The notes under the pieces: model-generated
Databases searched by the model: none
Seen by the model: only the letters and a program-made list of their open reading frames with translations
What the model was told of the DNA's origin: nothing
DNA from: Betaproteobacteria bacterium
GTDB lineage: Bacteria > Pseudomonadota > Gammaproteobacteria > Burkholderiales > Usitatibacteraceae
Direction of reading: 5' to 3'
Assembly: GCA_016790765.1 (NCBI GenBank)
Contig: JAEUMZ010000069.1
Span: forward strand, 1-64,000
DNA: 64,000 nucleotides
In this document: one piece after another, positions 14,296 through 27,620 of the stretch
How positions within the stretch are numbered: the first letter of the stretch is position 1
How the letters are laid out: each line of letters opens with the position of its first letter
Translations under genes and position numbers: made by a program

Positions 14296-14310
14296 TGTAG
14301 CAATACTACA
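14296..14310. promoter_or_regulatory. HexR-like operator, copy 1 (glgP/malK region)
   Basis: Perfect inverted repeat TGTAG-CAATA-CTACA. The same architecture occurs at 26558, 26654 and 27606, all next to the glucokinase genes. The position just downstream of the predicted glgP start of transcription suits a repressor site. Confidence 0.75.
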
Positions 14311-14406
14311 GAATATGTGCGTTCCTTGTTGTTCATCAACGCGCAGACAAGGCTCGTGAACCACGCCAGGCGCCCGGTTGCCCGGCATTCCTCGAAGAGG
14401 TCAGGC

Positions 14407-16860
14407 ATGTCGAACACATTGATTTCCTCTGCACGCGACCCATCCATGGCGCCGGACGCAAGCGCCGCCACGCCGGGTTTTGCATCGCGGGTCGAGCAGG
14501 CGCTTCTTCAGCGTACCGATCGGCTTGCCCCGCGTGCCATGTTTGTCGCGGTGGCCGAAGCGTGCCGTCCCATCTTGGCGCAACGCTGGGCCGCCACGCA
14601 ATCCATCGATGCCGCGCGCGATGACCGGCGTGTGCATTATTTGTCCATGGAATTCCTGATGGGGCGTGCACTGCACAACGCCGTCTCCGCGCTGGGGGTC
14701 GAGGGCGAAATCCATGCACTGGCGGGCAAACGCGTGCTGGCCGACTGGGAAACGCTGATCGACGGCGAGCGCGATGCCGCCCTGGGCAACGGCGGGTTGG
14801 GCCGCCTGGCGGCGTGCTTTCTCGATGCGCTTGCCGCGCGCGAAGTCCCGGCCTTCGGTTACGGCCTGCGGTATCGCTACGGCATGTTCTCGCAGCGGAT
14901 CGAATCCGGCCGCCAAACCGAGCGTGCCGACGATTGGCTGCGCGATGGAAGCCCCTGGGAGTTTTTCCGCGACGACGTGACTTACGCGGTGCCGTTTGGC
15001 GGGCGCGTGGAAAGCGAGCTGGGCCGCCGCGTATGGCACGGCGCGACGCGCATCAACGCCCGCGCGGTTGATTTCATCGTGCCCGCGCACGATTCGCCGC
15101 GCGTGGCGACGTTGCGCCTGTGGCAAGCCGAGGCGGGCGAGCCGATCGATTACGCCGCGTTCAGCCGTGGCGACTACGCCGGCGCGGCCGCCTGCGCCCA
15201 CGAAGCCGAGGTGCTCAACTGGGTGCTCTACCCGGACGATTCCACCGTTGCCGGGCGCACCCTTCGTTTGAAGCAGGAATACTTCCTGGTCAGTGCGTCC
15301 ATCCAGGACATGATTGCCCGCCACCTCGCCGAGGGCCGCGACCTTGCGCATTTCGGCCGCGACAATTGCGTGCACCTGAACGACACCCATCCCGCCCTGG
15401 CGCCCGCCGAACTGATGCGCGTGTTGATGGACCTGCGCGGGTTGGCGTGGGACGAAGCCTGGCGCATCACCACCGAGGCCACCAGCTATACCAACCACAC
15501 GCTGATGCCCGAGGCGCTGGAGACCTGGCCGGTGCGCCTGATGGCCGAGTGGCTGCCGCGCCATCTGGAGATCATCTACGCGATCAACCAGCGCTTTCTC
15601 GATGCGTTGCGCGAGACCCCGGGTGCGGATGAAGATCGCGTGCGCGCGCTGTCCTTGATCGAGGAAGGCCCGGAGCGGCGCGTACGCATGGCGCACCTGG
15701 CCATCGTGGCCTCCCACAAGGTCAACGGCGTCTCCGCGTTGCACTCGCAGCTGATGCGGCGGACCATCTTTGCCGGGTTTGCCGCGCTGACCCCGGAAAA
15801 ATTCGTCAACGTCACCAATGGCGTCACCCACCGGCGCTGGCTGTTCCAGGCCAATCCCGCGCTGGCGGCCGCCATCGACGGCGCGTTGGGCGAGGCGTGG
15901 CGGCAGCAACCGGCGCAGCTCGCAAGCTTGGCGGACCGCGCCGCGGATGCAGCCCTCAAGCGCACGGTGCGCCAGGTCAAGCGCGACAACAAGGTGCGGC
16001 TTGCCCACATCATCCGCCAGCACACCGGCATTGCCGTGTCGCCGGACAGCCTGTTCGACGTGCAGGTCAAGCGCATCCACGAATACAAGCGCCAGTTGCT
16101 CAACGTGCTGCATGTGGTGGCGCGCTACCTGGCCATCGTCGAGCGCGGCGAAGAACCAACGGTTGCGCGCACGGTGATCGTGGCCGGCAAAGCGGCATCC
16201 GCGTACCGCACGGCCAAGCTCATCATCCAGTTGATTCACGACGTGGCGCGCGAGGTCAACAGCGATCCGCGCGTCGGGGACAAACTGAAGCTGGTGTTCC
16301 TGCCCGACTACGGCGTCTCGCTCGCCGAACGCATCATGCCCGCGGCGGATTTGTCCGAGCAGATTTCCACCGCCGGCACGGAGGCTTCCGGCACCGGCAA
16401 CATGAAATTGGCGCTCAACGGCGCCCTGACCATCGGCACCTGGGATGGCGCGAACATCGAAATGGCCGAAGCCATGGGACCGGAAAACATGTTCGTCTTT
16501 GGCTTGAAGACAAACGAGGTCGAGGACCTGCGCCGTGTGGGATACGATCCGCGCTTGTTTGCCGAGCAGAATCGCGAGCTCGCCGCCGTGCTCGATGCCA
16601 TCGGCAATGGCCGGTTCTCGCCGGAGGAGCCGCAGCGCTATCGTGCCCTGGTCGATCACCTGTTGGGTGCCGATCCCTATTTCTTGCTGGCCGATTTCGC
16701 CAGCTACATGCAAGCCCAGCGCGACACCGATGCGCTGTACGCGGAAGGCGACGCCTGGACGTCGCGCGCGATTCGCAACATCGCGGCGATGGGGATGTTT
16801 TCGGCCGATCGCGCGATCGACGACTACCAACGCCTGGTCTGGCGCCGCGCCGGAACCTGA
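14407..16860 (+). CDS. glgP: Glycogen/maltodextrin phosphorylase
   Basis: 817 residues from ATG 14407, which has GAAGAGG six bases upstream (14394-14400); an upstream GTG at 14317 would add 30 poorly conserved residues and is rejected. It shows the family core with the pyridoxal-phosphate lysine Lys667 in SGTGNMKLALNGAL. It releases glucose-1-phosphate from alpha-1,4 glucans in the cytosol. First gene of the operon glgP-glgB-glgX-malQ-pullulanase, with 12 bp to glgB. It substitutes for MalP in the maltodextrin pathway, since no second phosphorylase is present. One small variation is Trp in GTWDGAN where Leu is common. Confidence 0.96.
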   Translation: MSNTLISSARDPSMAPDASAATPGFASRVEQALLQRTDRLAPRAMFVAVAEACRPILAQRWAATQSIDAARDDRRVHYLSMEFLMGRALHNAVSALGVEGEIHALAGKRVLADWETLIDGERDAALGNGGLGRLAACFLDALAAREVPAFGYGLRYRYGMFSQRIESGRQTERADDWLRDGSPWEFFRDDVTYAVPFGGRVESELGRRVWHGATRINARAVDFIVPAHDSPRVATLRLWQAEAGEPIDYAAFSRGDYAGAAACAHEAEVLNWVLYPDDSTVAGRTLRLKQEYFLVSASIQDMIARHLAEGRDLAHFGRDNCVHLNDTHPALAPAELMRVLMDLRGLAWDEAWRITTEATSYTNHTLMPEALETWPVRLMAEWLPRHLEIIYAINQRFLDALRETPGADEDRVRALSLIEEGPERRVRMAHLAIVASHKVNGVSALHSQLMRRTIFAGFAALTPEKFVNVTNGVTHRRWLFQANPALAAAIDGALGEAWRQQPAQLASLADRAADAALKRTVRQVKRDNKVRLAHIIRQHTGIAVSPDSLFDVQVKRIHEYKRQLLNVLHVVARYLAIVERGEEPTVARTVIVAGKAASAYRTAKLIIQLIHDVAREVNSDPRVGDKLKLVFLPDYGVSLAERIMPAADLSEQISTAGTEASGTGNMKLALNGALTIGTWDGANIEMAEAMGPENMFVFGLKTNEVEDLRRVGYDPRLFAEQNRELAAVLDAIGNGRFSPEEPQRYRALVDHLLGADPYFLLADFASYMQAQRDTDALYAEGDAWTSRAIRNIAAMGMFSADRAIDDYQRLVWRRAGT

Positions 16861-16872
16861 CCGGACCCCGGC

Positions 16873-26668: not shown

Positions 26669-26680
26669 GCCGGGACTCCG

Positions 26681-27580
26681 TCACGGAAGGCCGCCGGGGA
26701 GGCCTGCTTCATAAATCCGGAACCATTGCGCGGCCTCCAACCGAAGGTCGGCAGCGAGGGCCAATTGCCGCAAGCGATCCGGGCGCCCGGTGCCCACGAT
26801 GGGGATGGGCCGGCAGGGATGGCGCAGGAGCCAGGCCACGGCGGTCGTCTCGATGCTGCAGCCGAGCTCCGCGCCCACGCGCGCGAGGGCATCCCGCACC
26901 GGGGAGGGCTCGTTGACCCGTCCGCTGCCGAGGGGCGACCACGCCATGGGTCGCATGCGCAAAGCCAGGCACTGGTCGATGACGGCATCGCGCAAGGGTG
27001 CGTGTTGCCAGGCCGACAGTTCGATCTGGTGGGTCACCAGCGGCATGGGCAGGCGCTGCGCCAGCAGGTCCACGGTGGAGGCCGAGTGATTCGAAAGCCC
27101 GAAGTGCAGGACTTTGCCCTGTGCATGCAAACGGACAAATGCCTCCGCAACGGCGTCCGGGTCCATCAGGGGATCGGGACGGTGCAGAAGCAGGACATCG
27201 AGGTGATCGGTCCCGAGGTTGGCCAGACTGCGATCCACCGACCGCAGGATGTGTTCCGGCGAGGTGTCGTAGACCTTGTGGTCGAGCGCCGGAATGGCCG
27301 CGTCGGGCGTGGTTCCCGGCAGGCGGATGCCGCACTTGGACACCAAGGTCATGCGTGCACGGCGTGCCGTCGATTCGCGCAACACATCGCCGAACAGGGT
27401 TTCGCAGCGCATGTCGCCGTAGATGTCGGCGTGGTCGAAACAGTCGATGCCCAGGTCCAGGCAGGCATCGATCCAGTTGCGCCGGTCGGCAAGGTCGCGG
27501 CCCCATTCGTGCATGCGCCAGCACCCGGCGGCCAACGCCGACACCCGCGGGCCCCCCTTGCAAAACGCTGATTTGTTCAT
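26681..27580 (-). CDS. Aldo/keto reductase (YdhF-like)
   Basis: 299 residues from ATG 27580; a GTG six codons upstream is an alternative. An aldo/keto reductase barrel is visible with the catalytic set Asp-Tyr in FDHADIYG, Lys in LVSKCG and His in LLLHRPDP. The C-terminal IVGTGRP cofactor loop resembles the NADPH-binding region of the family. It most resembles the YdhF/AKR11-12 type oxidoreductases, whose sugar or aldehyde substrates are poorly known. It is divergent from the glucokinase-HexR fusion gene and shares a HexR-like box with it, suggesting a role in sugar or aldehyde metabolism in the same regulon. Confidence 0.88.
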   Translation of the reverse strand: MNKSAFCKGGPRVSALAAGCWRMHEWGRDLADRRNWIDACLDLGIDCFDHADIYGDMRCETLFGDVLRESTARRARMTLVSKCGIRLPGTTPDAAIPALDHKVYDTSPEHILRSVDRSLANLGTDHLDVLLLHRPDPLMDPDAVAEAFVRLHAQGKVLHFGLSNHSASTVDLLAQRLPMPLVTHQIELSAWQHAPLRDAVIDQCLALRMRPMAWSPLGSGRVNEPSPVRDALARVGAELGCSIETTAVAWLLRHPCRPIPIVGTGRPDRLRQLALAADLRLEAAQWFRIYEAGLPGGLP

Positions 27581-27605
27581 CGCTCCATCGTCCGGCACTC
27601 ATCAA

Positions 27606-27620
27606 TGTAGTTAAACTACG
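27606..27620. promoter_or_regulatory. HexR-like operator, copy 4 (AKR / glk-hexR)
   Basis: TGTAG-TTAAA-CTACG in the short region between the two divergent genes, with a further half-site TTGTAG at 27629-27634. The location predicts autoregulation of the fusion gene and control of the aldo/keto reductase. Confidence 0.7.

Follow-up and report, generated by a model that had tools for sequence, protein, structure and literature searches.

Predicted operators of a glucokinase-HexR fusion beside alpha-glucan and glucokinase genes in a betaproteobacterium

The mal/glg and glk locus and its four palindromes

The window analysed here, a 64,000-nucleotide stretch of a Betaproteobacteria contig, carries two divergent gene runs for alpha-glucan metabolism. 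On the reverse strand, malK (13043..14140) heads a malK-malE-malF-malG-amylase run, the downstream genes of which occupy 6657..13034, and on the forward strand glgP, encoding a glycogen/alpha-glucan phosphorylase (14407..16860), is followed by glgB, glgX, malQ and pullulanase genes (16873..25424). Beyond these lie a separate glucokinase gene with an intact DIGGT motif (glk, 25530..26522, reverse strand), an aldo/keto reductase gene (26681..27580, reverse strand) and, on the forward strand, a gene encoding a 610 aa glucokinase-HexR fusion, the presumed regulator (27670..29502). A PEP carboxylase gene (ppc, 29505..32282, forward strand) follows the fusion gene at a distance of 2 bp and, by position, belongs to the same operon. 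At the other end of the window, where the contig begins, the end of a TonB-dependent receptor gene (38-1960) and a tryptophan-halogenase-like gene (2073-3617) were recognised by eye; this pairing is frequent in polysaccharide-uptake loci.

Four TGTAG-N5-CTACA palindromes were confirmed by motif search, with the coordinates, mismatches and intergenic placement that an initial annotation had given them. Predicted operator 1, TGTAGCAATACTACA, is in the malK–glgP divergent gap (14296..14310); predicted operators 2, AGTAGCAAAACTACA (26558..26572), and 3, TGTAGCTCGACTACA (26654..26668), both precede glk, operator 2 by 36 bp; and predicted operator 4, TGTAGTTAAACTACG (27606..27620), is about 50 bp before the fusion gene, which is divergent from the aldo/keto reductase gene. 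All four sites have C or T at position 6 and A at position 10, a regularity beyond the original pattern, and read TGTAGY-N3-ACTACA.

Genuine and intergenic, the four palindromes exceed chance by a wide margin. With up to one mismatch allowed, the 64-kb window has six matches, these four and two in coding DNA, within glgB (18122-18136) and within the open reading frame at 2073-3617 (2164-2178), which can be disregarded. Dinucleotide shuffles of the window gave 0.16 matches on average and none of 100 reached six. The chance expectation is 0.0013 matches for the three intergenic stretches containing the four sites, and 0.18 for the 13.3-kb stretch at genome-wide density, the whole genome having 45 places in 3.30 Mb at up to one mismatch. 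Perfect matches number three genome-wide, two in the window and one at C77:3341, in the gap between a stand-alone hexR gene and edd; outside the mal/glg/glk locus and C77 none was found in this 80% complete genome. Promoter and terminator scans returned nothing usable, the promoter predictions being too weak to set the sign of control.

Site classes and target genes in fusion-bearing relatives

Two operator classes can be told apart at positions 6 and 10: the Y-R class, TGTAGY-N3-RCTACA, which is the fusion set, and the R-Y class of the TGTAGA-N3-TCTACA type. The loose pattern TGTAG-N5-CTACA was dropped as a working motif because it lumps these two together. The sites do not correspond to the known HexR box. 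Pseudomonas HexR binds TTGT-N7-8-ACAA (PMC5489143), and the operator found here is instead of the type bound by Pseudomonas RccR, TGTAGT-N3-ACTACA, as established by SPR and footprints (PMC5489143).

The relatives consisted of 80 named Burkholderiales loci with the fusion (Roseateles, Rubrivivax, Ideonella, Aquabacterium, Undibacterium and others), in which 186 of 225 sites are of the Y-R class. Of the 79 loci in which enough DNA precedes the fusion, 65 have a Y-R site no more than 450 bp upstream of its start, and nearly all sites within those 450 bp (116 of 118) are of this class. No site was found within 450 bp of the fusion in 14 of the 79, so autoregulation is not universal. Most of 25 palindromes permuted from the same letters gave far fewer matches in the 80 loci, although TGATG reached 167 against 225. 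Perfect Y-R sites occur at 0.41 per Mb in 16 fusion-bearing genomes and at 0.045 per Mb in 93 others, with at least one present in 14/16 and 12/93 genomes, respectively. The 15 genomes examined for individual sites (3-7 Mb each) held 30 perfect Y-R sites in 12 genomes, with 0 to 4 per genome; nine named genomes were picked for holding the fusion. Raw counts of a reversed control pattern were as high as the motif's in single genomes, so genome-wide counts are by themselves no proof, and the case rests on site location and on the comparison of fusion-bearing with other genomes.

When the stretches around perfect sites were fetched and annotated, nearly all of the sites preceded mal/glg, glk, the fusion, TonB receptors or amylase-type genes. 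Perfect Y-R sites lie in six malK/glgP divergent gaps (L168, L169, L170, L171, L179, L182), between glgX and malK (L172, this arrangement being that of Rubrivivax rivuli), at glk (L181, L183), and at pullulanase/amylase (L180), amylase (L174), isoamylase (L173), TonB receptor (L177) and starch-binding amylase (L178) genes. The perfect site of L176 has no clear link to a target, G105:C1:1288908 being the sole unclear case. In Rubrivivax gelatinosus (G104), a perfect site (L175:5018) lies between glgP-glgB-glgX and glgC-glgA and would place both the breakdown and the synthesis of glycogen under a single regulator. An extra site occurs in the examined loci of Roseateles and Rubrivivax, either before a TonB receptor gene followed by an alpha-amylase gene or between genes for a TonB receptor and a glucodextranase-like amylase.

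The window sites themselves recur. Operator 1 has counterparts in the mal/glg intergenic region of Ideonella, Roseateles, Aquabacterium and two same-genus MAGs, and the malK/glgP gap of same-genus G008 contains TGTAGGATAACTACA, one position away from the Y-R class. The core of operator 2, GTAGCAAAACTACA, is present in 53 of the 80 loci and its full 15-mer also in L101 and L124, while the 15-mer of operator 4 has an identical copy before the fusion of G008 (L063:10986). A distance of 12 kb separates the mal/glg site from the other three, and it lies in AT-rich intergenic DNA, in which palindromes arise more readily by chance; the fusion might accordingly control only itself and glk, the mal/glg site being another regulator's or a sequence accident. 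This is very unlikely, because the malK/glgP gap also holds a site of this class in Ideonella, three Roseateles, Aquabacterium and G012, as does the interval from glgX to malK in Rubrivivax rivuli.

The motif search in this genome and its relatives, which the initial annotation had proposed, found Y-R sites conserved before the same genes in relatives that bear the fusion. Its view that one regulator joins glycogen and maltodextrin use to glucose phosphorylation appears sound, because the links to mal/glg, glk and the fusion through a single site class are all conserved in relatives. The inclusion of ppc follows only from its operon position in this genome, the order fusion-then-ppc being found in none of the 80 related loci. 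The idea of a widened HexR regulon, considered below, is not supported. In two same-genus genomes ppc adjoins the stand-alone hexR.

Several Sphaerotilaceae have a second, R-Y-like palindrome (e.g. TGTAGACAATATACA) on the malK side, about 110 bp from the Y-R site (L169:4887, L170:4928, L179:4947, L168:4244; also L171:5077, L174:7830). Their malK looks as if it were under two operators of different class, the second of which is absent in the window.

The stand-alone HexR and neighbouring circuits

The genome also encodes a stand-alone HexR (C77:2357-3190, given as 2324-3226 in L046) adjoining edd-eda-zwf, with a perfect site (C77:3341) and a one-mismatch site (C77:3229) in the hexR–edd gap. The initial annotation had suggested looking for sites before edd, eda, zwf and gap; the perfect match in this gap belongs to the R-Y class. 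The hexR–edd gaps of G003, G004, G008, G010, G012 and G014 contain, with small variations, TGTAGA-N3-TCTACA plus a TGTTGA or TCAACA variant, and across the genus and family the hexR/edd gaps have almost solely R-Y sites. The Y-R sites of the fusion locus differ in class from these. Since the stand-alone HexR has its own sites beside edd-eda-zwf, the classical role belongs to it. The L046 copy of this protein ends early and, by eye, has M where relatives have an R matching R277 of RccR.

The alternative that the stand-alone HexR, and not the fusion, binds the four sites would make them an extension of a KDPG-responsive HexR regulon to maltodextrin and glycogen. TGTAG-N5-CTACA is common to both site sets, the third perfect match of the genome is in the hexR/edd gap, and HexR regulons are broad in Shewanella and Vibrio (PMC5343134). 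We consider this alternative unlikely. The two site sets differ systematically at positions 6 and 10, and the recognition helices of the two proteins are unlike (VSQPTVVRFC in the fusion against VSQPTVARFC). In Roseateles, Rubrivivax and Ideonella a TGTAAY-N3-RTTACA-like site for the stand-alone HexR lies before zwf, while the Y-R sites remain at the fusion and at mal/glg; TGTAAY-N3-RTTACA-like sites accompany the zwf-hexR unit in 4 of 7 Sphaerotilaceae genomes examined. Finally, strain AAP99 has the sites and no match to a stand-alone HexR in its genome. AAP99 (L070, L184) is also an exception in having a Y-R site between edd and zwf, and there control of the Entner-Doudoroff genes may have passed to the fusion.

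The proposal of a regulon wider than the classical Entner-Doudoroff set is misleading for the window genome, because its Entner-Doudoroff genes have their own HexR, a separate protein with intact KDPG residues and another operator class, and in the tree the fused domain lies apart from the branch of HexR, RccR and stand-alone proteins. The fusion is a HexR paralogue with a different predicted regulon, not the centre of a widened HexR regulon.

Related sites accompany further paralogues. Some genomes of the genus (G004, G005, G008, G010; loci L054, L055, L056, L057) carry a second type of fusion, 45-47% identical and preceded by two or three TGTAAT-N3-ATTACA-like sites. Together with the zwf-hexR sites, this gives what by sequence are three or four paralogous circuits with neighbouring operator alphabets. 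The residue after VS in the recognition helix is Q in the fusion and the genus HexRs and E in RccR, all with TGTAG, and K or D with TGTAA. A code in which this residue sets base 5 was kept merely as a lead, because the groups are few.

The fusion protein, its signal and a proposed mechanism

Domain search resolved the fusion into Glucokinase, RpiR-type HTH (PF01418) and SIS (PF01380) domains. It has the domain order of the bifunctional transcriptional regulator/glucokinase model NF010701 (PRK14101), one chain of Glucokinase, HTH and SIS, which covers residues 2-589 with a score of 788.7 bits, below the curated cut-off of 920. The predicted structure (pLDDT 81, pTM 0.53) fits both folds and leaves the domain arrangement unfixed. 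It matches E. coli glucokinase 1sz2 with Z 38.3 and 2.9 A over 317 residues, and RccR 8ju9 with Z 27.1 over 258 residues, where the rmsd of 12.0 means that the relative domain placement is unmatched. The HexR part shares 38% identity with E. coli HexR, the same with RccR, and about 43-45% with the genome's own stand-alone HexR. In a tree with long branches and unknown rooting, the fused domains fall outside a branch uniting HexR, RccR and the stand-alone proteins (support 100/99). A third, distant RpiR-like protein is encoded on C20 and is another conceivable regulator at the four sites.

RccR contacts KDPG through S139, H148, R152, H164, S183, S185, S188, K270 and R277, of which R152, K270 and R277 are essential (PMC10810197). 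At the first seven positions the window fusion has Y, Y, R, R, S, T and I, with five of seven changed and R152 kept, and by eye comparison of the alignment its C-terminus has no clear counterpart of K270 or R277. The genome's own stand-alone HexR has S, H, R, H, S, S and S, its same-genus equivalents S, H, R, H, S, then S or T, and the Sphaerotilaceae stand-alone HexRs keep the equivalents of S139, H148, R152 and H164. Y occupies position 139 in 76 of the 80 fusion loci, F or Y position 148 in 76 and R position 164 in 75, and position 188 is hydrophobic in all 80. With most contact residues replaced across the clade, KDPG is probably not the signal of these fusions. More distant fusions (G082b, G084) retain much of the KDPG site, which suggests that the pocket changed after the fusion event.

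RccR resembles the fusion in being an RpiR-family protein with HTH and SIS domains, a TGTAGT-N3-ACTACA operator and control of central carbon metabolism (PMC5489143, PMC10810197), and among solved structures its 8ju9 and 8k3b are nearest to the fused HexR part. It is nonetheless quite improbable that the fusion is in effect an orthologue of RccR and responds to KDPG. RccR has no glucokinase part, senses KDPG through residues the fusion lacks, groups with HexR and the stand-alone proteins in the long-branched tree, and has aceEF and glyoxylate-shunt targets that differ from those predicted for the fusion. Proteobacterial HexR (PMC5489143; PMC5343134, citing Leyn et al. 2011) likewise belongs to the RpiR family and regulates glucose use, its gene frequently lying close to zwf, edd or glk, but its signal is KDPG and its targets are Entner-Doudoroff genes; here the protein on C77 has that role and the KDPG pocket. 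MalR/MalI share maltodextrin control with the fusion but are of the unrelated LacI family (PMC4052901).

The phosphate loop of the fused glucokinase is altered, DIGGTN of normal glucokinases having become DVGSLY (DVGSLYVR against DVGGTNAR in E. coli), so that the DxGGT of active glucokinases is lacking. In every clade fusion having that stretch the last loop residue is Y or F, while the separate glk nearby retains N in each of the 65 cases with the motif found. The window fusion retains N102, D103, E160, H163 and E190, which we take to be glucose-side residues from their roles in E. coli Glk. Loss of kinase activity in the window protein is plausible. It is a speculative but conceivable further step that the fused glucokinase has become a sensor reading glucose or starch/glycogen flux for the DNA-binding domain, given the altered loop, the retained glucose side, an intact glk in the regulon and an SIS pocket unfit for KDPG.

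We infer that the four sites are probably the operators through which the fusion controls mal/glg, glk and its own gene, most likely as a repressor and with a signal other than KDPG. Its RpiR-type domain, as a dimer or tetramer, would recognise TGTAGY-N3-RCTACA at the mal/glg divergent promoter, the two sites before glk and the region upstream of its own gene, and would co-ordinate maltodextrin import and breakdown, glycogen turnover and glucose phosphorylation. Repression would be relieved by a sugar signal, candidates being a sugar phosphate in the altered SIS pocket or glucose at the glucokinase domain. Different operators (Y-R versus TGTAGA-N3-TCTACA) would keep this circuit apart from that of the true HexR.

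Genome databases annotate the fusion merely as a bifunctional regulator/glucokinase, and the literature searched contained no regulon published for it, although earlier predictions for Betaproteobacteria may exist. It now gains a predicted operator, evidence suggestive of a changed signal and a putative target set of alpha-glucan uptake and breakdown, glycogen and glk genes that appears conserved in a large part of the Burkholderiales. As sister regulators of one cell that differ by one or two operator positions and by recognition-helix changes, the fusion and HexR offer a ready test case for the insulation of paralogous repressors.

The window also encodes a serine/threonine kinase with a cyclic-nucleotide-binding domain (33834-35138), a 71% identical copy of which lies about 7 kb from a glucokinase gene in G012 (L065).
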